A stretch of DNA of 64,000 bases from positions 1 to 64,000 of the forward strand of contig JALHMM010000010.1 in NCBI GenBank assembly GCA_022844045.1, written 5' to 3'. A model generated the notes under the pieces. That model was not told where the DNA came from, did not search any database, and saw only the letters and a program-made list of their open reading frames with translations. Shown here one piece after another: positions 8,422-61,540 of the stretch. The translations under genes and the position numbers were made by a program. Numbering within the stretch: position 1 is the stretch's first letter; every line of letters starts with the position of its first letter. The stretch comes from Reyranellaceae bacterium. GTDB taxonomy: Bacteria > Pseudomonadota > Alphaproteobacteria > Reyranellales > Reyranellaceae.

Positions 8422-8544
8422 TACCTTCCCCCGGAGGGGGAAGGTGGCGCGTAGCGCCGGATGGGGATGCTTCAACGCACGCGGTGTCCGTCTTCGACAT
8501 CCCCCATCCGCCCTTCGGGCACCTTCCCCCTCCGGGGGAAGGTA
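8422..8544. repeat. Type A palindromic repeat, copy 2
   Basis: A complete copy: ACCTTCCCCCGGAGGGGGAA on the left, TAGCGCCGGATGGGG and CCCCCATCCGCCCTTCGGGC in the middle, and CACCTTCCCCCTCCGGGGG on the right. It lies between the aldolase and the enolase-superfamily gene, ending 10 bp before the latter's start codon. Confidence 0.85.
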
Positions 8545-21987: not shown

Positions 21988-22112
21988 TACCTTCCCCCGG
22001 AGGGGGAAGGTGTCGCGGAGCGACGGAAGGGGGATGTCGAAGACGAACAGAGGAGTCCGTCTTCGACATCCCCCTTCCGCCCTTCGGGCACCTTCCCCCT
22101 CCGGGGGAAGGG
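21988..22112. repeat. Type A palindromic repeat, copy 5
   Basis: A complete copy with ACCTTCCCCCGGAGGGGGAA, a central GATGTCGAAGACG/CGTCTTCGACATC pair, CCTTCGGGCACC and CTCCGGGGGAAGGG. It ends 19 bp before the start codon of the next gene. The count numbers the in-frame copy at 19676 as copy 4. Confidence 0.85.
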
Positions 22113-22809: not shown

Positions 22810-23451
22810 ATGACGGGTGATGGATCGGCCGCGCTGGCGGCCGCGCACCGCTACTGGTCGCGGCTCGAGGATGGGATGAACCTGATCGCCGCCGCCGCGA
22901 TCTTTGTCCTGATGTTCATCGGCGTCTTCCAGATCGTCGGCCGCACGGCGTTCGACACCGCGATCCACGGCTATATCGACTACATGGAGCAGGCGAGCGC
23001 GCTGTTCGCCTTTCTCGGCATCGCCTACGCCCAGCGCACCGGCGCGCATATCCGCATGGACCTGCTGCTGCGCGGCGTCTCCAAGCGCTTCCTGTGGTCG
23101 ATGGAGCTGTTCGCCGTGCTGGTGGCGCTGGTGATCATCACCATCCTGGTCCAGACGACCTTCGAGAACTTCCTGCGCGCATATCAGCTTGGCGACTCGA
23201 CCATCGACATCAAGCTCAAGACCTGGCCGACCAAGCTGCTGGTGCCCTTCGTGCTCGCCGTGCTGTGGCTGCGGCTCGCCCTGCAGGCCACGGACTACGC
23301 GCGGCTGGTCGCCTATCCCGACGCGACGCCGATCGCCGTGCCGGTGATCGAGACCATCGAGGTCCAGGCGCGGCAGGAGATCGAGGACGCCCTGGGTCGC
23401 GAGGAGAAGAGGGGCCGCGAAGAGAAGACGTCCGGGGAGAAGCGGTCATGA
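22810..23451 (+). CDS. TRAP transporter small permease (DctQ type)
   Basis: The 213-residue protein has four transmembrane helices and the DctQ pattern: MNLIAAAAIFVLMFIGVFQI, then DYMEQASALFAFLGIAYAQRTGAHIRMD in helix 2, the most conserved stretch of the family. It forms the membrane part of a TRAP carboxylate importer with the large permease, whose ATG overlaps this gene's stop (ATGA). The C-terminal 40 residues are highly charged. A GGGAGG site precedes the start. Confidence 0.92.
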   Translation: MTGDGSAALAAAHRYWSRLEDGMNLIAAAAIFVLMFIGVFQIVGRTAFDTAIHGYIDYMEQASALFAFLGIAYAQRTGAHIRMDLLLRGVSKRFLWSMELFAVLVALVIITILVQTTFENFLRAYQLGDSTIDIKLKTWPTKLLVPFVLAVLWLRLALQATDYARLVAYPDATPIAVPVIETIEVQARQEIEDALGREEKRGREEKTSGEKRS

Positions 23452-24752
23452 GCATCGATCCGCTCACCATCGGCATCATCGGCTGCGGCCTGCTGATCCT
23501 GCTCTGCGTGCTGGGCGTGCGCATCGCCTTCTCGGCGGCGATCGTCGGCGCCTTCGGCCTCGTCGCGATCACCGGCTGGGGTCCGGGTTTGCGCACCGCC
23601 GGCATCGTGCCGCACGCCTCGGTGGTGAACTACACGCTCTCCGTGCTGCCGATGTTCATCCTCATCGGCTATCTCGCCTATTACGCCGGCATCACCCAGG
23701 CCGCCTTCGAGGCGGCGCGGCGCTGGCTCGGCTGGCTGCCGGGCGGGCTCGCGATCGCCACGGTCTACGCCGTCGCCGGTTTCTCCGCCGTGTCGGGCGC
23801 CAACACGGCGGCCGCCGCCGTCTTCGCCAAGGTGGCGATCCCTGAAATGCTGAAGGCCGGCTACAACAAGCGGCTGGCCGCCGGCGTGGTCGCCGCCGGC
23901 GCCACGCTTGATTCGCTGATCCCGCCCAGCGCGCTGCTGGTGGTCTACGGCATCATCACCGAGCAGTCGGTCGGCAAGCTGCTGGTCGCGGGCTTCGCGC
24001 CCGGCCTGTTCTCGGCCCTGGTCTACACGGCGATCATCCTGGTGATGTGCTGGCGCAACCCGTCCTATGGCCGGCCGATCCGCGGCTACACCTGGCCGCA
24101 GCGCGTGTCCTCGCTGCCCGGCACGTTTCCGATCATCCTGGTGATCGCCATCATCTTCTGCTCGATGCTGTGGGGCTGGGCGACGCCCACAGAGGCCGGC
24201 GCGCTGGGCGCGGCCTGCGTGCTCGTGATCGCGCTGGCCAACCGGATGAAATGGCCCGAGCTGCGCGGCGCGCTGCTCGAGACGGCCAAGCTGACGGCGG
24301 TGATCTTCACCGTCGTCTGGGGCGTGCTGATCTTCGTGCGCTTTCTCGGCTTCGCCGGCCTACCGGAGCAGCTCGCGACGTGGGTCACCGGGCTGAAGGT
24401 CGCGCCGATCTGGATCCTGCTGTCGATCTACGCGATCTACCTGATCCTCGGCACCATACTCGAGGGCGTCGGCATGTTCCTGCTGACCCTGCCGGTCGTG
24501 TTCCCGGTGATCGAGGCGCTGGGCTACGACCCGATCTGGTTCGGCATCATTCTGGTGAAGCTCAACGGCATCGCCACGCTCTCGCCACCGGTCGGCCTCG
24601 TGGTCTTCGTCGTCAACGGCGTGCGGCCGGATATCTCGGTCGCCGACATCTTCCGCGGCATCTGGCCGTTCATTCTCGCCGACATCATCACCATCGCCTG
24701 CCTGACGGCCTTCCCGGAGATCGTGACCTTCATCCTCGACGCGGCGGGGTAG
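23448..24752 (+). CDS. TRAP transporter large permease (DctM type)
   Basis: The 434-residue membrane protein has about 12 hydrophobic segments and typical DctM motifs: VSGANTAAAAVFAKVAIPEM, the LDSLIPPSALLVVYGIITE loop, and GVGMFLLTLPVVFPVI with KLNGIATLSPPVGLVVFVVNG near the end. It is the sodium-driven transport subunit. The start overlaps the small permease gene by 4 nt. The matching P-type receptor lies downstream on the opposite strand, an unusual arrangement for a TRAP locus. Confidence 0.93.
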   Translation: MSIDPLTIGIIGCGLLILLCVLGVRIAFSAAIVGAFGLVAITGWGPGLRTAGIVPHASVVNYTLSVLPMFILIGYLAYYAGITQAAFEAARRWLGWLPGGLAIATVYAVAGFSAVSGANTAAAAVFAKVAIPEMLKAGYNKRLAAGVVAAGATLDSLIPPSALLVVYGIITEQSVGKLLVAGFAPGLFSALVYTAIILVMCWRNPSYGRPIRGYTWPQRVSSLPGTFPIILVIAIIFCSMLWGWATPTEAGALGAACVLVIALANRMKWPELRGALLETAKLTAVIFTVVWGVLIFVRFLGFAGLPEQLATWVTGLKVAPIWILLSIYAIYLILGTILEGVGMFLLTLPVVFPVIEALGYDPIWFGIILVKLNGIATLSPPVGLVVFVVNGVRPDISVADIFRGIWPFILADIITIACLTAFPEIVTFILDAAG

Positions 24753-24764
24753 TCATGCCGCTGG

Positions 24765-24851
24765 CTGTCATCCCGAGCATCGCGAGGGATCCAGGGCGAT
24801 CTGGATTCCTCGCTTCGCTTCAGGGGCCGCGGACGGCCCCGAGAATGACAG
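24765..24851. repeat. Type B inverted repeat, copy 3, with inserted palindrome
   Basis: The outer arms are CTGTCATCCCGAGC and a degenerate GAATGACAG. Between them the right arm is broken by the same 24-bp palindromic segment found at 19691 (here 24820-24843; core GGGGCCGCGGACGGCCCC). The copy lies between the convergent dctM-type and dctP-type genes, a natural place for a two-way terminator. Confidence 0.75.
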
Positions 24852-24852
24852 G

Positions 24853-25893
24853 TCAAGACTTCGGCGGCGTTCCGGCTTCCTTGAGCAGGAAGTTCAGGAG
24901 CTCGCGGCCGGGAATGCCCTGCGCCTCGCGCTTCGCCACCCATTCCTCCCATACCGGCTCGCCGCCGGCCTTGCGGAAGGCGGCGATTTCCTCGGGCTTG
25001 TACCGGAGGAACTCCAGCTTCTTCTTGAACAGCGGGATGTTCTTCTCGTCGGCCGCCGCGTAGGCGCCCTTCAACGCCGCGTGCGCCGCCGGCACGGCCT
25101 CCATCAGCAGATCCTGGTACTGCTTGGGCAGCTCGGCCCAGCGCTGGGTATGGATCAGGGTCGGGCAGCCGACGTTCCCGAGATTCATGTTCTCGGTGTA
25201 CCACTTGCCGACCTCGTAGGTGCGGTAGGCTTGGTGCGCGTAGGTCGTCGGGAAGGCCGCCGCGTCGACCGTGCCGCGCTCCAGCGAGGTGTAGACCTCG
25301 GTGGCGTCGACCGAGGTCGGCACCGCGCCCAGCTTGCGCATCGCCTCGCCGATGCCGGCCAGCGCGCGCACGCGCATGCCCTTGAAGTCGGCCACGGTTC
25401 GCGGCGCCTTGCCGCGACCGACGAACTCGTTGTTCGGCAGCACGGCCGAGAGGTAGGGCATGGCGTTCCAGCCGGCGAACTCCTTGACGATCGCCGGGTG
25501 CTTGTAAAAGGCGCGATGGACCCGCTCCTGCGTGTCGAAGTCGGGGATCGGCAGGAACGGCAGGTCGAGCGCCGAGAAGGCCGGCAGCTTCTCCGGGTGG
25601 TACGAGGCGCAGATGTTGGTCATCTCCAGGCTGCCGACCTTCAGCGAGTCGAGCAGCTCCTTGGGCTGGCCGAAGCTCTCGTAGCCGATGGTGATCTGGA
25701 ACTTGCCGCCGGTGCGCTCGGCCATGAATTTCTTGAGTGTCTCGACGTTCTGGGTCGCGGCGCGCGGCTTGCCCCAGGCGCCGAGCTTCCACTTGACCTC
25801 CGGCCCGTCGACGATCTTCGCCTGGGCGAACGCGCTACTCGACCACGCCAAGACGCTGGCTGCCACGACGGCAGCGACGGTCAGACGGACCAT
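24853..25893 (-). CDS. TRAP transporter substrate-binding protein (DctP type)
   Basis: This 346-residue periplasmic receptor has a signal peptide ending SSSAFAQ and the DctP fold: LVVGTLEM-like KVGSLEMTNICASYHP, LPFLPIPDF, VRALAGIGEAMRKLGAVP and TSLERGTVDAAAFPTTY, the helix that binds the ligand carboxylate with the conserved Arg (RVRAL). It should serve the convergent QM permease pair. The chosen ATG has GAGGAG 7 nt upstream. It starts 69 bp after the SDR gene, so both may share a transcript. Confidence 0.92.
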   Translation of the reverse strand: MVRLTVAAVVAASVLAWSSSAFAQAKIVDGPEVKWKLGAWGKPRAATQNVETLKKFMAERTGGKFQITIGYESFGQPKELLDSLKVGSLEMTNICASYHPEKLPAFSALDLPFLPIPDFDTQERVHRAFYKHPAIVKEFAGWNAMPYLSAVLPNNEFVGRGKAPRTVADFKGMRVRALAGIGEAMRKLGAVPTSVDATEVYTSLERGTVDAAAFPTTYAHQAYRTYEVGKWYTENMNLGNVGCPTLIHTQRWAELPKQYQDLLMEAVPAAHAALKGAYAAADEKNIPLFKKKLEFLRYKPEEIAAFRKAGGEPVWEEWVAKREAQGIPGRELLNFLLKEAGTPPKS

Positions 25894-25962
25894 GGGATGT
25901 CTCCTCGGTGATTCCTCCGGCTGCCGATTCTTGCGACCGGCTGACGGCAACGTTACCGGGGC

Positions 25963-26709
25963 TCAGGTCGCGGCGCCACCGTTGATCTGGATCATCTGGC
26001 CGTTGATGAAAGCGCCGTCGTCCGAGACCAAGAGGCGCAGCGCACCGGCGATCTCGCCTGAGGAGCCCATGCGGCCCACGGGCACGGCCTTCACCGTGTC
26101 CTGGCGGTGCTTCACCGAGGCGGGATCGTCGTTGTCGCGATCGCCGGCGATCGGTCCGGGCGAGATCGCGTTGACGGTGATGCCCTTGGGCCCGAACTCG
26201 CGCGCCAGCGCCTTGGTCAGGCCCCACACGCCGTGCTTGGCCACCGTGACCGAGGGCCGGCCACCGGTTCCCTGCATGGCGTTCATGCCGGTGAAATTGA
26301 CGATACGGCCCCAGCCGCGCTCGATCATGCCAGGCAGGCAGGCGCGGGACAGCCACACCGCGGCGTCGAGATCGACCGACATGACGCGCCGCCATTCCGC
26401 GTCGCTGGTCTCGAGGAACGACTTGCCGGGACGGATCGCGGCGTTGTTGACCAGCACGTCGACCGCGCCGAAGCGCGCGATGGCCTCGGCGGCGATGCGC
26501 TGGGCGTCCTTCGGATCGCCGACATCGCCCATCGCCACCAGCGCCTCGACGCCCTGCGCCGTACATTCCTGCGCCACCTGCTCGCAGGCGGCGCGGTTGG
26601 ACGAGCCGTTGATGACGACGTTGTAGCCGTCCTTCGCCAGGTAGAGCGCGCAGGCGCGGCCGATGTTGCGGCCGGCGCCGGTGATCAGCGCGGTGCGGCG
26701 TGCGGGCAT
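25963..26709 (-). CDS. SDR-family protein lacking the catalytic Tyr
   Basis: The 248-residue Rossmann protein has TGAGRNIG at 10-17 (cofactor) and VNNAAI at 88-93, and ends with the usual FINGQMIQINGG. At the active site, Y-x-x-x-K is replaced by V154-T-V-A-K158, and the preceding Ser position falls in NFTGMNAM without an obvious Ser. It therefore lacks two classical catalytic residues, although it keeps Asn and Lys. It may be non-catalytic, or use another residue. GGAG lies 7 nt before the ATG. The downstream TRAP receptor could transport its substrate. Confidence 0.85.
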   Translation of the reverse strand: MPARRTALITGAGRNIGRACALYLAKDGYNVVINGSSNRAACEQVAQECTAQGVEALVAMGDVGDPKDAQRIAAEAIARFGAVDVLVNNAAIRPGKSFLETSDAEWRRVMSVDLDAAVWLSRACLPGMIERGWGRIVNFTGMNAMQGTGGRPSVTVAKHGVWGLTKALAREFGPKGITVNAISPGPIAGDRDNDDPASVKHRQDTVKAVPVGRMGSSGEIAGALRLLVSDDGAFINGQMIQINGGAAT

Positions 26710-26727
26710 GCTCGTTCTCCGCCTTGG

Positions 26728-26793
26728 TCGGGGCGCGCCACTCCAGTGGCGCGTGGAACAACAAGACGCACCACTGGAGTGGCGCGCGCCCAG
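26728..26793. repeat. Type C inverted repeat (short arms)
   Basis: GGGCGCGCCACTCCAGTGGC and its near reverse complement surround a short GGAACAACAAGACG spacer. It separates the CoA-transferase gene and the SDR gene, which are read in the same direction; the stem could act as a terminator for the CoA-transferase transcript. Confidence 0.75.
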
Positions 26794-26797
26794 CGCC

Positions 26798-27979
26798 TCA
26801 GATCACGTCACCGGCGCGCAGCGCCGCGATCGCGGCGCCGTCGTAGCCGAGGCCGGCCAGCACCTCGTCGGTGTGCTGGCCGAGCTCCGGCGTCGGCTTC
26901 AGCGCCGCCGGCTGCGGCGCGGCGCTCATGTTGATCGGCTGGCCGACGACCTTGATGTCGCCGAGCTTGGGGTGCTTCACCGGCCGCGCGATGCCGAGAT
27001 GCTGCACCTGCGGCTCGGCGAAGGTCTTGTCGATGGTGTTGATCGGCCCGCAGGGCACGCCGGCCTTGTTCAGCGCTTCGATCCAGTGCGCCGATGTGTT
27101 GGTCTTTGTCACCTCACCGATGCGCTGGTTCAGCGCCTTGCGGTTCTGCGAGCGCAACGACGGTGTGGCGTGCTCGGGATGCTCGATCAGCTGCGGCGCG
27201 CCCACGGCCAGCGCGAAGCGCTTCCACATCTTGTCGCCCGACGCGGCGATGTTGATGTAGCCGTCGCTGGTCGGAAACACGCCGGTGGGAATCGAGGTCG
27301 GGTGATCGTTGCCCGCCTGCTTGGCGACCTCGCCCTTCATCAGCCAGCGCGCGGCCTGGAAGTCGAGCATGAAGATCTGCGCCTCGATCAGCGAGGTGTG
27401 CACCCACTGGCCCTTGCCGGTGCGCTCGCGGTCGTAGAGCGCCAGGATGATCGCCTGCGCCAGCAGCAGGCCCGAGGTCAGGTCGGCGATCGGGATGCCA
27501 ACGCGCATCGGCCCGGCGCCGGGCTCGCCGGTGATCGACATCAAGCCGCCCATGCCCTGCGCGATCTGATCGACGCCGGGTCGCGCCGCGTCGGGGCCGC
27601 TCTGGCCGAAGCCGGCGATCGAGCCGTAGATGATGCGCGGATTGACCTTGGCGACGGCGTCGTAGTCGATGCCCAGGCGATGCTTCACGTCGGAGCGGTA
27701 GTTCTCGACGATGACGTCGGCCTTCGCCGCCAGCTTCATGAAGATGGCTTGGCCTTCGGGGCTCTTGAGGTTGAGCGTCATCGCCTGCTTGTTGCGATGC
27801 AGGTTCTGGAAGTCGAAGCCGTGCCGCGCGCCGCCCATCGAGTCCATCTTGCCGTCGCTGGGCTGCTCGATCTTGATCACCGTGGCGCCCCAGTCGGCGA
27901 GCTGGCGCACCGCCGTGGGGCCGGCGCGGTGCGCCGTCAGGTCGAGGACGAAGAGATGGGAGAGCGGCAGCGTGGACAT
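26798..27979 (-). CDS. CaiB/BaiF family III CoA-transferase
   Basis: The 393-residue protein has the family III opening PLSHLFVLDLTAHRAGPTAVRQLADWGATVIKIEQP, the NKQAMTLNLKSPEG and DVIVENYRSDV segments and the YGSIAGFGQSGPDAARPGVD motif. These enzymes move CoA between carboxylic acids without ATP. It starts 5 nt after the enoyl-CoA hydratase gene and its ribosome site lies inside that gene's end, so the two are one operon for activating and hydrating an unsaturated or branched acid. The frame stays open far upstream but that part overlaps the hydratase gene. Confidence 0.93.
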   Translation of the reverse strand: MSTLPLSHLFVLDLTAHRAGPTAVRQLADWGATVIKIEQPSDGKMDSMGGARHGFDFQNLHRNKQAMTLNLKSPEGQAIFMKLAAKADVIVENYRSDVKHRLGIDYDAVAKVNPRIIYGSIAGFGQSGPDAARPGVDQIAQGMGGLMSITGEPGAGPMRVGIPIADLTSGLLLAQAIILALYDRERTGKGQWVHTSLIEAQIFMLDFQAARWLMKGEVAKQAGNDHPTSIPTGVFPTSDGYINIAASGDKMWKRFALAVGAPQLIEHPEHATPSLRSQNRKALNQRIGEVTKTNTSAHWIEALNKAGVPCGPINTIDKTFAEPQVQHLGIARPVKHPKLGDIKVVGQPINMSAAPQPAALKPTPELGQHTDEVLAGLGYDGAAIAALRAGDVI

Positions 27980-27984
27980 GACGC

Positions 27985-28776
27985 TCACCTTCCTTTGAAG
28001 ACCGGCTTGCGCTTCTCCATGAACGCGCGGCGGCCTTCCTGGTAGTCCCCGCTGTCGAAGCACTCGACCGCCATGCGCTCGAGCTTGGCGTGATCCTGCT
28101 GCGACTCCGGCTTGGCGATCTCGCGCGCCGACGCCTTGGCCAGCGCGATGGTCAGCGGCGCGTTCTCGCCGATCGCGCCAGTGATCTTGGCCACCATGGC
28201 GTCGAGCTCGGCGTCCGTTGCCGCCACGCCGTGCACCAGGCCCATCTCGGCGGCTTCCTTGCTGCTGTACTGCTTGGCGGTGAACAGGAACTCCATGGCG
28301 CGCGGCAGGCCGACGATGCGCGACAGCCGCTCGATGCGCAGGAAGCCGTAGCCCAGGCCGAGCTTTGCGGCCGGTACGCCGAAGCGCGCCGCCTCGTTGC
28401 AGTAGCGCAGGTCGCAGCACGCGGCGAGGTTCATGCCGCCGCCGATGCAATAGCCGTTGATCTTGGCGATGGTCGGCTTGGGGAAGTTGTAGAGCGCCTC
28501 GTAGCCGTCCTTGGAGATCGCGTCGTAGCGCACCTGCGCCTCGGCGTTGGCGCGCTCGCTCTCGAACTTGGAGATGTCGGCGCCTGAGACGAAAGCCTTG
28601 CCACCAGAGCCGCTGACGACGACGCAGCGGATCTCGGGGTCCTGGGCGAAGTCGCCGAGGATGCTGACCATGCGCTCCCACATGTCGAGCGACACGGCGT
28701 TGAGCTTGGCCGGGTTGTTGAAGACCACGTGGCCGATATTGCCCTCGCGGTGTCCGAATAGCTTCTGGTCCTGCAT
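27985..28776 (-). CDS. Enoyl-CoA hydratase/isomerase (crotonase) family
   Basis: This 263-residue protein has the crotonase signatures: oxyanion-hole segments SGADISKF and GYCIGGGMNLAACCDLRY, followed by GVPAAKLGLGYG. At the usual catalytic Glu positions it shows no clear pair (GLGYGFLRIERLSRIVG), so it may be an isomerase or another crotonase activity. I start at MQDQKLFG, which has a perfect GGAGG 8 nt upstream; a second ATG five codons earlier would overlap that site. It is the first gene of the operon with the CoA-transferase. Confidence 0.88.
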   Translation of the reverse strand: MQDQKLFGHREGNIGHVVFNNPAKLNAVSLDMWERMVSILGDFAQDPEIRCVVVSGSGGKAFVSGADISKFESERANAEAQVRYDAISKDGYEALYNFPKPTIAKINGYCIGGGMNLAACCDLRYCNEAARFGVPAAKLGLGYGFLRIERLSRIVGLPRAMEFLFTAKQYSSKEAAEMGLVHGVAATDAELDAMVAKITGAIGENAPLTIALAKASAREIAKPESQQDHAKLERMAVECFDSGDYQEGRRAFMEKRKPVFKGR

Positions 28777-28876
28777 GCCGATTTCCTCCATCGGCGGCCC
28801 TTATATCCCAAGCGGCGTGCTTTGGACCCGCCAATCCTGATATGACAGCCAGAACGATAGGTGCTGAGGAGACGCC

Positions 28877-28945
28877 GTGGCATCCGCCGAGATCAGGAAC
28901 TTGACGCGGCGGTTCGGCGACGGCTTTGAGGAAGCGGCGGCATGA
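28877..28945 (+). CDS. 22-codon upstream gene coupled to the TrxR-like gene
   Basis: A GTG start with GAGGAG 6 nt upstream opens a frame of 22 codons (starting MASAEIRNLTRRFGDG) that ends in a TGA overlapping the next ATG (ATGA). The ribosome site is better than that of the following gene, which has none of its own, so translation of the flavoprotein probably depends on this small frame. The peptide is acidic at the C-terminus and has no known relative to me. It could be a leader peptide, or the start of a frame now serving only coupling. Confidence 0.5.
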   Translation: MASAEIRNLTRRFGDGFEEAAA

Positions 28946-29808
28946 GCGAGACCTGGGACGTTGTCGTGATCGGCGCCGGTGCCGCCGGCCTGCGCGCCGC
29001 CGCCGTCGCGGCCAAGGCCGGCGCGCGGGTGATGTGCATCGACAAGCTCGGGCCGGGCGGCCTGATGATGAACTTCGGCGAGATCCACGGCGCGCCGGCG
29101 GAGGCCGCCGGCCTCACCGGCCCGGACTTCATCGCCGCGCTGCTCGATCAGGCGACCGAGGCTGGCGTCGAGATGGGCTTCGGCGAAGTCACGGCGCTCG
29201 GCACCGGTGCAACCTGGTCGGTCGTCGCCGACGAAACGCATGCGGCGCGCGCCGCGATCGTCGCCTCGGGGCTGAGCCACGGCACGCTCGGCCTGCCGGA
29301 GGAGGCGCGCTACCTCGGCCAGGGCATCTCGCACTGCGCCGTCTGCGACGGGCCACTCTACGCCGGCCAGCCCGTGGTGGTGGTTGGTGATCAAGGCTGG
29401 GCCGTGCAGGAAGCGCGCGAGCTCGCCGGCATGGCGAGCGCGGTCACCGTTGTCGCCGAGACGGCGCCGCCGCTGCCCAACGTCACCGCGATACCGGGCC
29501 GCATCATCGCGCTCGATGGCGACGACGGCCTGCAAGGCCTGGTGATCGAGCGCGGCGGCCAGACCATGCGGCTCGAGACCCGCGCGCTGTTTCCTTATGT
29601 CGGCCGCAAGCCGGCCTGCGGCTTCGTCGACGCCGAGCGCGATGCCGCGGGCGCGTTGGTCGTGCAAGCCGATGGCGCCACGTCGGCACCGGGGCTGTTC
29701 GCCGCGGGCGATGTGCGGTCGGGCGCGCCAGAGACCATCGCCCAGGCGCTGGCTGACGCGGAGAAAGCCGGCGCGGCCGCTGCCGCCTGGGCGGCCGCTC
29801 ATCGCTGA
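28942..29808 (+). CDS. Thioredoxin reductase-like flavoprotein
   Basis: The 288-residue protein has GAGAAG at 11-16 (FAD), the redox-active C132-A-V-C135-D-G motif as in thioredoxin reductase (CATCDG), and GLFAAGDVRSGAPETIAQALADAEKAG for the flavin at the C-terminus. The second nucleotide site is abnormal: GDQGWA (149-154) replaces GGGNTA and the HRR motif for NADPH is absent, so the electron donor may not be NADPH. It is shorter than TrxB. It lies just upstream of a selenoprotein gene, with a type A repeat between, and could supply its electrons. Confidence 0.85.
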   Translation: MSETWDVVVIGAGAAGLRAAAVAAKAGARVMCIDKLGPGGLMMNFGEIHGAPAEAAGLTGPDFIAALLDQATEAGVEMGFGEVTALGTGATWSVVADETHAARAAIVASGLSHGTLGLPEEARYLGQGISHCAVCDGPLYAGQPVVVVGDQGWAVQEARELAGMASAVTVVAETAPPLPNVTAIPGRIIALDGDDGLQGLVIERGGQTMRLETRALFPYVGRKPACGFVDAERDAAGALVVQADGATSAPGLFAAGDVRSGAPETIAQALADAEKAGAAAAAWAAAHR

Positions 29809-29821
29809 CAACTTCTTCTTT

Positions 29822-29943
29822 CCCTTCCCCCGGAGGGGGAAGGTGCCCGAAGGGCGGAAGGGGGATGTCGAAGACGGACATCGATGTCGTTGAAGCATCC
29901 CCCATCCGGCGCTGCGCGCCACCTTCCCCCTCCGGAGGAAGGT
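29822..29943. repeat. Type A palindromic repeat, copy 6
   Basis: A complete copy: CCTTCCCCCGGAGGGGGAAG, GCCCGAAGGGCGGAAGGGGG, CATCCCCCATCCGGCGCTGC and CTTCCCCCTCCGGAGGAAGG. It lies between the TrxR-like gene and the selenoprotein gene. A G/C hairpin of about 29 bp (GTGCGGGGC...CGCAC) follows at about 29948-29976. Confidence 0.8.
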
Positions 29944-30041: not shown

Positions 30042-30566
30042 ATGAAGATTGTGAACCCGAGTTTCGGCGTGTCGGCGACCGGCGGCGAGAAGATGGCCAC
30101 CGCGGCGGTCGACTGGCTGCGCGATCCGATCGCGTTGATCACCAACGCCAAACCCAACGCGCACGAACTGCTCGACGGCATCCGCACCAAGCTCGGTGCG
30201 ATGCGGCCCATCGACAACATCGCCTTCCTCGGCAAGGACAGCGCCAGCCAGCCGGCGCCGGCCGCGCTGTATGACGAGGTGGCGAAGAACTACAAGGCGG
30301 CGCTTCTAGCCTTAGCCGATTGAGGCTCCTGTTCATCGTGGAGTTTCCACGACAGCGTCGAACTGGAGAAGAAGGGCGTCACGGCTTACGTGATCGCGAC
30401 CGAGACTTTCAAATCGCTCGTTCTTGCGCAGGCCAAGGCGCGCAAGATCACGCCACGACTCATCGTCGTGAAGCATCCCGTCGGCGGCCTGAATGCCCAG
30501 GAGCTTGCCGAGCGTATCGAGACCGCCACCGCCGGCCTGACCAAGGTCATGAGCGGCGGCAGCTGA
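30042..30566 (+). CDS. UGSC-family selenoprotein (Sec encoded by TGA at 30321-30323)
   Basis: Read with the in-frame TGA as selenocysteine, this is one 174-residue protein, with Sec94-Gly-Ser-Cys97 followed by SSWSFHDSVELEKKGV. After the TGA the same frame is open for 80 codons and continues a sensible fold (VTAYVIATETFKSLV, then ITPRLIVVKHPVGGL and a final helix) to a TGA at 30564. U-G-[ST]-C followed by a helix ending E-[LI]-E-x-x-G, then a HP[VL]G segment, is also how the C-terminal part of selenoprotein B (GrdB) of glycine reductase looks, so I infer a thiol/selenol redox domain. GGGAGGAAGG precedes the ATG. Ordinary annotation would stop at residue 93 and miss the active site. The alternative, a nonsense mutation, is unlikely given the motif and the hairpin. 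Confidence 0.93.
30324..30359 (+). promoter_or_regulatory. Bacterial SECIS-like hairpin for Sec94
   Basis: Just 3' of the UGA the mRNA can fold a 6-bp upper stem, TCGTGG (30336-30341) with CCACGA (30347-30352), closed by the loop AGTTT, which has G at its second position. Below it CTG (30329-30331) pairs with CAG (30353-30355), leaving TTCA as a 5' bulge. Eighteen bases separate the UGA from the loop. A G in the first two loop positions, a U-containing bulge and this spacing are the features of bacterial SECIS elements bound by SelB. Confidence 0.82.
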
Positions 30567-30589: not shown

Positions 30590-31648
30590 ATGACCGATAC
30601 GTCCCAGACCGACCCCGCCGACGCCGAACTCATCGACGTCGGCGAGATGGATGTCACGGCGTTCAACGAGTACGCCCTGCAGCAAGGCTGGAGCGACGGC
30701 ATGCCGCTCTATGTCCCCACCGAGCAGGCGGTCGAGAAGTTCGTCGCCGTCTGCCGCGGCGACAACCGGCCTTTCCTGCCGGTCTCGCCGCGCTCGGTGG
30801 TGCCGACCCTGCAGAGCCTCGCCGCCAACGCGGTGATGGCCGGCTGCAGGCCGGAGTATTTCCCGGTGGTCACCGCGGCGCTGCACGCCGTGCTGAACCC
30901 CGACTACAACCTGCACGGCACGCTCGCCACGACGCATTCCTGCGCGCCGATGCTGGCGGTCCACGGACCGATGCGGCACACGCTGAAGATCAACTGTGGC
31001 AGCAACTGCTTCGGCCAGGGCTGGCAGGCCAACGCCACCATCGGCCGCGCCCTGGGGCTGATCCTGCTCAACGTCGGCGGCGCCAAGCCGGGCGAGATGG
31101 ATCGCTCGACCCAGGGCTCGCCAGCGAAGTACACCTTCTGCTTCGGCGAGAACGAGGAAGAAAGCCCGTGGGAGCCCTATCACGTGCGTCGTGGCTTCAA
31201 TGCCAACGATAGCGTGGTGACGGCGATGGCGGGCGAGGCGCCGCACAACATCAACGATCACGGCAGCACCACAGGCGACGACATCATCACCACCATGGCC
31301 GGCACGATCTCGCAGGTCGGCGCCAACACGATCTATGGCAAGGGGCCGTACTTCGTGGTGATCGGCCCTGAGCACGCCGCGACCCTGAAGCGCGACGGCT
31401 TCACCATCGAGAGCATGCAGGCCGCGCTTCACGAGCGCTCGCGCGTGCATGTTTCGCGTGTCTCCAAGGGCAACCAGGAGAACTACGCCAGCACGAGCCG
31501 ACCGCGCCAGGGCGACTACTACTACATCGGCCGGACGCCGGAAGACATCCACATCCTGGTGGCTGGCGGCCCGGGCAAGCACTCCGCCTTCATCCCGTCC
31601 TTTGGCGGCACCACCGTCAGCTCGGTGCGCATCGCGCCACCGACCTGA
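30590..31648 (+). CDS. Unrecognised Cys-rich protein next to the selenoprotein, paralogue 1
   Basis: I cannot assign this 352-residue soluble protein to a named family. Distinctive parts are GWSDGMPLYVPTEQAVEKF (33-51), ANAVMAGCRPEYFPVV (C86), TTHSCAPMLAVHGP (C118), INCGSNCFGQGWQANA (C136, C140), SPAKYTFCFGENEEESPWEPY (C184) and DIHILVAGGPGKHSAF near the end. The next gene encodes a diverged copy. It starts 23 nt after the selenoprotein, so it is almost surely in the same operon. The cysteines and the context suggest a substrate-binding or catalytic partner of the selenoprotein, which is inference. Confidence 0.85.
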   Translation: MTDTSQTDPADAELIDVGEMDVTAFNEYALQQGWSDGMPLYVPTEQAVEKFVAVCRGDNRPFLPVSPRSVVPTLQSLAANAVMAGCRPEYFPVVTAALHAVLNPDYNLHGTLATTHSCAPMLAVHGPMRHTLKINCGSNCFGQGWQANATIGRALGLILLNVGGAKPGEMDRSTQGSPAKYTFCFGENEEESPWEPYHVRRGFNANDSVVTAMAGEAPHNINDHGSTTGDDIITTMAGTISQVGANTIYGKGPYFVVIGPEHAATLKRDGFTIESMQAALHERSRVHVSRVSKGNQENYASTSRPRQGDYYYIGRTPEDIHILVAGGPGKHSAFIPSFGGTTVSSVRIAPPT

Positions 31649-31664: not shown

Positions 31665-32666
31665 ATGGACTGGGGTAACCTGCCGGTCTTCGACGACGGC
31701 GCCGTCTTCGAGGACGTGCAGGCGGCGCTGGCCGAGGCCGAGCAGGCCGACGGCCTGCCGATGGCGCCGCCGACGCGCCGCCGCCTCGAGGCGATGATCA
31801 AGGGCGTCGGCGCGCCTGAGCGTTCCTACGGCCCGATGCCGCCGCTGTTCGGCGAGATCACGCCCGCCGCGGTCGCCTATCAATGCGTGCTGGCGGGCTG
31901 CAAGCCGGCGGAGCTGCCGCTGGTTGTGACCGCCGCCGCGGCTTGTCTGACGCCCGACTTCAACCTGCTCGGCGTCTCGACCACGACGGGGACGGCCTGC
32001 GTCGTGACCATGGTGCATGGGCCGATCGCCACGGCGCTGGAGATGAACGCCGGTACCAACATGCTGGGGCCGGGCAATCGCGCCAACGCCTGCATCGGCC
32101 GCGCCGTCGCGCTCGTGCTGCGCAACATCGGCGGCGCGCGACCGCTGGTCGGCGACATGGCGACCATGGGCCAGCCGGGCAAGTACACCTTCTGCTTCGC
32201 CGAAGCCGACGCCGAGGACGACGCAGCCAACGCCGCCTTCCCGTCTTTCGCCACGCATCGCGGCGTTCCGTCAGGCGCCGACGCCGTCACCGTGCTCGGC
32301 GTCTCCGGCACCATGGAGGTGCTGATCGGCCATCCCGGCGACACACCGGAAACGGCGCTGGCGTCGGTGCCGCACATCATGCGCGCGGGCGCGATCGCGT
32401 CAGGTGCGGCGCGCAAGCCCGAGCGTGGCGAGCAGGCGCTGCTGCTGCCGCCCGAGCTGGCGCGGCTCCTGGCCGCGCGCGGCTGGGATCTGGCGCGCAC
32501 TCAGAGCTGGCTGTTCGAGCGCTGTGGCGAGCTGGGCGGCGAAGTCGCGCGCGCGCCGCGCGACATCCACATCATCGTCGCCGGCGGCGCCGGCCAGAAG
32601 ATGACCTACCTGCCGCTATGGGGCGGCAGCACGGTGCCGGTCACCAGCCGGGTGGTGGAGTTGTAA
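31665..32666 (+). CDS. Unrecognised protein next to the selenoprotein, paralogue 2
   Basis: The 333-residue protein is a paralogue of the preceding one: ADGLPMAPPTRRRLEAMI, QCVLAGCKPAELPLVV, TGTACVVTMVHGP, ANACIGRAVALVLRNIGGARP and QPGKYTFCFAEADAED align in order, and both end with a DIHI(L/I)VAGG segment. The CGSNC motif of paralogue 1 is NAGTNM here, so the two have divided roles, perhaps as a heterodimer with one active and one structural subunit. It starts 16 nt after paralogue 1 at an ATG without a strong ribosome site, suggesting coupled translation. Confidence 0.85.
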   Translation: MDWGNLPVFDDGAVFEDVQAALAEAEQADGLPMAPPTRRRLEAMIKGVGAPERSYGPMPPLFGEITPAAVAYQCVLAGCKPAELPLVVTAAAACLTPDFNLLGVSTTTGTACVVTMVHGPIATALEMNAGTNMLGPGNRANACIGRAVALVLRNIGGARPLVGDMATMGQPGKYTFCFAEADAEDDAANAAFPSFATHRGVPSGADAVTVLGVSGTMEVLIGHPGDTPETALASVPHIMRAGAIASGAARKPERGEQALLLPPELARLLAARGWDLARTQSWLFERCGELGGEVARAPRDIHIIVAGGAGQKMTYLPLWGGSTVPVTSRVVEL

Positions 32667-61408: not shown

Positions 61409-61540
61409 TCTTCCCCCGGAGGGGGAAGGTGGCAGCGCGAAGCGCTGACGGAAGGGGGATGCCGCAACGACTCGGGAGTCCGTCTTCGACATCCCCCTTC
61501 CGCCCTTCGGGCACCTTCCCCCTCCGGGGGAAGGGACAAG
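61409..61540. repeat. Type A palindromic repeat, copy 8
   Basis: Complete copy (CTTCCCCCGGAGGGGGAAGG, GCGCGAAGCGCTGACGGAAG, CATCCCCCTTCCGCCCTTCG, CTCCGGGGGAAGGGAC) inserted in the operon between the two permease genes. It must be read through to express the distal genes, so it is not a full terminator here. Confidence 0.85.

Follow-up and report, generated by a model that had tools for sequence, protein, structure and literature searches.

We analyzed positions 1 to 64,000 of contig JALHMM010000010.1 from a Reyranellaceae bacterium (hereafter the window), which belongs to a 6.4 Mb draft genome of 144 contigs that is 91.87% complete. The window carries a gene of the UGSC selenoprotein family whose reading frame passes through an internal UGA, and this gene is preceded by a gene for a thioredoxin-reductase-like (TrxR-like) flavoprotein and followed directly downstream by two genes, GW1 and GW2, of a family that we call GW after its GWxDGLP start, the four genes making up one predicted operon (Table 1). 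From its ATG, the UGSC gene runs for 93 codons to the first TGA and then for 80 further open codons to a second TGA at 30564-30566. The codons after the first TGA begin with GGC-TCC-TGT (Gly-Ser-Cys), and the site thus reads U-G-S-C, U being selenocysteine (Sec). The initial annotation, made from the sequence of the window, had proposed a single gene that is read through the UGA, and this is confirmed by the open frame, by a Pfam match that spans the stop and by the related loci described below.

Table 1. Features of the UGSC locus in window coordinates.
Feature	Coordinates	Strand	Basis
Gene for the UGSC selenoprotein (174 residues, Sec94)	30042..30566	+	Reading frame, motif, PF24696, relatives
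In-frame UGA, Sec codon (predicted)	30321..30323	+	Codon survey of 113 loci; match to tRNA-Sec anticodon
Bacterial SECIS-type hairpin, 6-bp stem, 5-nt loop AGTTT	30336..30352	+	Compensatory change; AGT fixed in the loop
GW1, first copy of the GW family	30590..31648	+	No Pfam or NCBIfam match; family linkage
GW2, the other family copy, probably forming a subunit pair with GW1	31665..32666	+	32% identity to GW1; 426.6 bits
Thioredoxin-reductase-like FAD (flavin adenine dinucleotide) protein that has CAVC but lacks the usual NADPH motifs	28942..29808	+	Pyr_redox_2, TIGR01292

The match to PF24696, the Pfam UGSC family, extends over residues 3-170 (E 9e-33, 114.2 bits against a cut-off of 25) and bears out the earlier assignment to this family. 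The only NCBIfam match of the read-through product is to NF041046, the NCBI model for the family, which carries the name '(seleno)protein'; at 107.6 bits (E 5e-31) it stays under the cut-off of 125. Since the Pfam cut-off is passed and that of NF041046 is missed, we place the protein within the Pfam family, in a divergent subfamily of it, and not in the NF041046 equivalog. The window gene is a further member of the published UGSC family, with which it shares the motif, the length, the single in-frame Sec codon and the selenocysteine insertion sequence (SECIS); the window protein reads UGSCSSWSFHD at this site, whereas its three paralogues in the same genome read UGSC[ST][ST]CSLHD. The family was described in the Global Ocean Sampling (GOS) survey (PMC2398784), and according to a 2026 review what almost all families of this kind do is still largely uncharacterized (PMC13188914). 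A search of the PDB with the single UGSC protein sequence gave nothing at E up to 1, and one with the UGSC profile at E up to 5 gave three chance-like matches, the best of them (E 0.033) to a designed protein.

In order to read the Sec site across the family, we used 80 related loci, the best among at least 585 that were confirmed; the only peptide pattern of the search began at the Gly past the Sec site, which kept the site itself out of the selection. The nearest named sources of these loci are Reyranella, L042 being from the cultured relative Reyranella aquatilis, and other Alphaproteobacteria. At the Sec site 73 of the 80 loci have TGA and seven have TAG. With the window, its three paralogues and 29 loci from related genomes (L104-L132) added, these last 33 all with TGA, the 113 loci (112 distinct sequences, L079 and L080 being identical) show 106 TGA, seven TAG and no Cys codon. 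Homologues with Cys in place of Sec94, which the initial annotation had suggested looking for, were therefore not found among the 113 loci; the GOS survey counts 21 Cys-containing UGSC forms in its set (PMC2398784). The genome of the window has four UGSC genes including that of the window, each with exactly one in-frame TGA, and the family is present in 64 of 101 genomes (this one and 100 relatives) with one TGA per match among the matches listed, as read at the codon level for L104-L132 and from the count of stops within the match for the others.

Loci L024-L075, with 56-75% identity to the window protein, have TGA at the equivalent position, and of the 52 window-type sequences (the window gene plus 51 loci) all but one keep an open frame for 77-80 codons after it, the only exception being L074, where the end of the contig cuts the frame short. 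Homologues therefore do not end at residue 93. Nor is substitution after the TGA neutral. For codons +16 to +71 after the TGA, the mean nonsynonymous and synonymous differences per site (pN and pS) among the 52 sequences were 0.129 and 0.491, a pattern of purifying selection, and in the part before the TGA they were 0.237 and 0.519. These means come from 848 of 1326 pairs, those with equal pre-TGA length and pS below 0.70 in both parts (478 were dropped), and pN is smaller than pS in 847 of the 848 pairs in each part, before the UGA and after the SECIS.

The seven TAG loci (L076-L078, L081-L083 and L086) come from Blastococcus and Geodermatophilus. Use of UAG for selenocysteine in the Geodermatophilaceae was reportedly described by Mukai et al. 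in 2016. The anticodon of tRNA-Sec fits the Sec codon in all 13 genomes checked, being CUA in the seven TAG genomes and UCA in the six TGA genomes; the CUA form is labelled Pyl by ARAGORN and scores above the gathering cut-off of Rfam RF01852. The replacement of TGA by TAG, tracked by the anticodon, amounts to an experiment made by nature, which shows Sec to be the residue at this site. UAG-encoded Sec in this family of Actinobacteria, with UGSC-motif selenoproteins among the cases, is already published according to a paper that cites an earlier report (PMC5330540). Our locus has in common with that system the UGSC selenoproteins and a Sec codon that matches the tRNA-Sec anticodon, and differs from it in that the window genome uses UGA with UCA. 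Taken together, the comparison shows the UGA of the window gene to be a predicted selenocysteine codon.

The window genome also encodes decoding factors for such a codon. SelB scores 466.3 bits against a cut-off of 242.25, and a tRNA-Sec with anticodon TCA (UCA) and 72.3 bits lies about 3.4 kb from selB on the same contig; a tRNA scan of the 64-kb window itself found none. Of the four genes for which a search had been proposed, selB and selC are thus present, and the other two are taken up below. Among the 101 genomes, SelB exceeds its cut-off in 61 of the 64 that bear UGSC genes and in two of the 37 others. The earlier claim of a functional selenoprotein is supported by these genes together with the continued frame and the selection upon it.

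The hairpin that adjoins the UGA is formed by the arms TCGTGG (30336-30341) and CCACGA (30347-30352) around the loop (30342-30346), with a G at loop position 2 and 18 nt from the UGA to the loop. The 113 loci supplied 77 distinct 45-mers for a survey of this hairpin; these are related sequences and not independent events. The upper stem is paired in all 77 at five positions and in 72 at the outermost one. The pair that closes the loop is never mismatched, being G-C in 47 sequences and C-G in the other 30, and the Leu codon of the 3' arm follows from it, being CTC (18) when facing G and CTG (18) or TTG (1) when facing C; another upper-stem pair is G-C in 71, G-U in five and A-U in one. The loop reads AGTCT (36), AGTTT (30), TGTAT (6) or AGTGT (5). 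Its Ser codon is AGT in all 71 Ser-bearing sequences, the remaining six having Cys TGT, and AGT makes up 3.4% of Ser codons (72 of 2144) in the GW gene matches and 4.8% (25 of 526) in UGSC genes outside the hairpin. This comparison shows that the hairpin is under selection as RNA. The folding energy is unexceptional (z -1.0; 30 of 200 shuffles fold equally well), and an Rfam scan of the 64-kb window gave nothing at the gathering score. The 6-bp upper stem, the loop G and the spacing described in the initial annotation stand, but its 5' bulge is not conserved, nor is the lower stem, whose three outer positions are paired in 25, 26 and 31 of the 77 sequences.

A GW gene stands beside nearly every UGSC gene surveyed. 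GW1 and GW2 align with 32% identity, and GW2 was recovered with 426.6 bits in the search of the genome. Five GW members gave no match to Pfam or NCBIfam at E up to 5, and the PDB gave none either, with the GW1 sequence at E up to 1 or with the GW profile at E up to 5. The genome has five GW genes, every one beside one of the four UGSC genes. Of the 84 loci made up by the 80 related ones, the three paralogous ones and that of the window, 82 have GW; the two misses lie at contig ends, where L062 and L074 stop 108 and 2 bases past the UGSC match. GW lies downstream of the UGSC gene in the subfamily of the window and upstream of it on the contigs of the three paralogues (C31, C89 and C61) and at L091, L092, L094 and L100. 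The two families are carried by the identical 64 of 101 genomes, and GW-bearing loci are labelled Alphaproteobacteria, Actinomycetes, Rokuibacteriota, Chloroflexi, Acidobacteriaceae and others. For the profiles we aligned UGSC proteins from the window, 48 of the 80 related loci and the three paralogues (52 members), and GW proteins from the window, 49 loci and the three paralogues (53 members); four strongly conserved GW cysteines occur in 49, 41, 42 and 52 of the 53. Some GW matches count one internal stop; in the window this is the terminal TGA of the gene itself, past which the match runs by one codon. Within the sampled loci, comparison thus shows GW to be a strictly linked neighbor of UGSC. 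On contig C61 of the same genome, one GW gene (L023, 7097-8533) is extended at its N-terminus by a CPTC-containing stretch that resembles thioredoxin by eye, without a Pfam match.

We found no account of a GW partner in the accessible parts of the literature on UGSC selenoproteins, their operons, glycine reductase and Reyranella. The GOS paper reports a fusion of UGSC with a domain called Unknown_1 (PMC2398784), and GW may be this domain.

The flavoprotein upstream matches Pyr_redox_2 (E 2e-22) and, at 168.5 bits, remains under the TIGR01292 cut-off of 343.45. A relative of it occurs at 59 of the 80 related loci, in 55 upstream on the same strand (including Actinobacteria L076-L090) and in four elsewhere (L058, L059, L069 and L075). 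The GGG signature and HRR are the usual NADPH-binding (nicotinamide adenine dinucleotide phosphate) motifs of TrxB-type proteins. Among 24 aligned TrxR-like proteins all have CAxC, none has HRR, and GGG is found at the nucleotide-binding site of three (L059, L069 and L075) but not in that of the window. The window flavoprotein thus shares with TrxB (TIGR01292) the FAD-type fold match and the CxxC, as CAVC, and differs from it in its score below the cut-off and in the GGG and HRR motifs. Because these standard motifs are missing, the usual use of NADPH is probably not to be expected, and the protein would take its electrons from another donor. A neighbor of this kind was not described in the accessible literature on UGSC with thioredoxin reductase.

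The initial annotation had also likened the site to selenoprotein B of glycine reductase (GrdB). The Sec of GrdB and of its D-proline reductase counterpart PrdB is thought to attack the substrate in these enzymes. Of the NCBIfam and Pfam models for this group (TIGR01917, TIGR01918, TIGR04483 and PF07355), TIGR01917 is matched by seven of the 52 UGSC proteins when E values up to 1 are allowed. The best match (E 9.6e-5) covers profile positions 320-399 with 21.5 bits against a cut-off of 602.2, others shown singly have E 0.0046, 0.011 and 0.13, and the window protein itself has no match at E up to 1. PrdB-like genes with U-P-x-C are found in the window genome and its relatives, and from 10 of 20 PF07355 loci in the same and related genomes we built an alignment for comparison by hhalign. 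The 52 UGSC proteins align with these 10 over 70 columns with Sec on Sec (score 28.8, E 0.001, probability 21%); ten column shuffles reached at most 16.5, and UGSC against GW reached 17.6. The likeness to GrdB is remote, a possible weak homology with Sec on Sec that lies far below the TIGR01917 cut-off, and since the family cut-offs are missed we do not file UGSC as GrdB. UGSC shares with GrdB/PrdB the UxxC in the alignable C-terminal region, whereas its partners belong to a different, unnamed family and its scores lie far under those cut-offs. The alignment suggests common descent of UGSC and the Sec domain of GrdB/PrdB, a link of which we found no account in the accessible literature on glycine reductase and UGSC.

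Within the window genome, two short PrdB-like (PF07355) matches lie on contigs C97 (L176) and C3; the frame on C97 has an in-frame TGA as U-P-F-C directly past the match.

Further upstream, at 22810-28791, the window holds genes for a tripartite ATP-independent periplasmic (TRAP) transporter (DctQ, DctM and DctP), a short-chain dehydrogenase/reductase (SDR), a family III CoA-transferase and an enoyl-CoA hydratase. Relatives of the neighbors are rare at the 80 related loci (enoyl-CoA hydratase seven, CoA-transferase four, SDR four, DctM two, SBP5 one), and those of DctQ, DctP, the aminotransferase and the flavin mononucleotide (FMN) dehydrogenase occur at none, a weak test for the TRAP genes because these lie about 4-7 kb from the UGSC gene and the related loci reach at most 5 kb to each side. 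Given this rarity, the wider neighborhood was left out of the UGSC system. A dispersed intergenic repeat with the core GGGGGATGTCGAAGACGGA gave six matches with at most three mismatches against 0.04 expected. Its sites in the window are 29860-29878, 22029-22074 (an inverted pair), 8487-8505 and 61479-61497, and further copies lie just after the UGSC genes of contigs C61 and C89.

Judged from sequence comparison, the UGSC selenoprotein and its operon neighbors probably form a multi-protein Sec-dependent reductase system, to which we give a probability of roughly 0.6; the strict linkage is the reason for taking them as one enzyme system. In such a system, SelB and Sec-tRNA-Sec(UCA) would decode the UGA with the aid of the adjoining hairpin and so produce the U-G-S-C active site. 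The CxxC of the TrxR-like flavoprotein would, in the subfamily of the window, hand electrons on to the redox pair of the U-x-x-C motif, and the selenolate of Sec would then attack a small substrate that the GW1-GW2 pair holds or presents. Chemistry like that of GrdB/PrdB is proposed here because the weak homology places Sec on Sec. The more detailed form of this proposal is tentative, at slightly less than even odds: UGSC, GW1 and GW2, with the TrxR-like protein in the subfamily of the window, would be an undescribed Sec-dependent complex and a compact, distant relative of GrdB/PrdB, present in several copies per genome with different substrates, distributed from Alphaproteobacteria to Actinobacteria, and served by a flavoprotein without the usual NADPH site.

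Several observations weigh against this proposal. In the draft genome, selA (31.0 bits against 267.9) and selD (57.1 against 125) score below their cut-offs. The selB contig stops 160 bases from the selB match; in one congener (G002) selA adjoins selB, and in another (G003) the order is selD-selA-selB, SelD there being an Ndh-SelD fusion. As selA of the congeners sits where the selB contig ends, the gap would reflect loss in assembly. Three UGSC genomes (G033, G054 and G072) have no SelB over the cut-off. On the side of GrdB/PrdB, TIGR01917 is matched by seven of the 52 members even at E up to 1, and mostly weakly; PF07355 is matched by none of the 52 at E up to 5, and the hhalign probability is 21%. 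Of the 80 related loci, 21 showed no TrxR-like gene (L027, L030, L062, L066, L068, L070, L071, L073 and the more distant L091-L103), nor was one found near the other three UGSC genes of the genome, and with this distribution it belongs to the subfamily of the window and not to the whole UGSC family.

One alternative is that UGSC is a thioredoxin-like general thiol oxidoreductase that reduces peroxides or disulfides, GW being the protein on which it acts as a client. A thioredoxin-like fold is what the GOS authors expected for UGSC (PMC2398784), UxxC is a common redox pair, and both the conserved GW cysteines and the CPTC stretch of the C61 gene would suit such a role; yet none of the 52 UGSC members matches the Pfam thioredoxin family at E up to 5, and the best remote NCBIfam profiles are those of the GrdB/PrdB group, which makes this explanation unlikely. 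It appears less likely still that the Sec protein is made but stands beside GW and the TrxR-like gene through co-inheritance and not as part of one enzyme. Linkage does differ from physical interaction, and the flavoprotein gene was not found at 21 of the 80 related loci, but GW stands beside all four UGSC paralogues of the genome, the linkage recurs in the varied taxa listed above and the presence of the two families is identical in 64 of 101 genomes. Finally, a 93-residue protein truly ending at the UGA, with a separate or decaying frame downstream, would fit the TGA itself, the ordinary hairpin energy and the low selA and selD scores in the draft, but is next to impossible given the open frame under purifying selection beyond the stop in 52 sequences, the invariant Sec site, the TAG swaps matched by the tRNA-Sec anticodon and the PF24696 match across the stop.

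Relative to the published UGSC family and its UAG form, the linkage to GW, the TrxR-like neighbor and the link to GrdB/PrdB appear to be new as far as the accessible literature goes. For the proposed Sec reductase system this means that a linked, nameless family and a remote relation to GrdB/PrdB would turn a redox protein of unassigned role into a testable complex.
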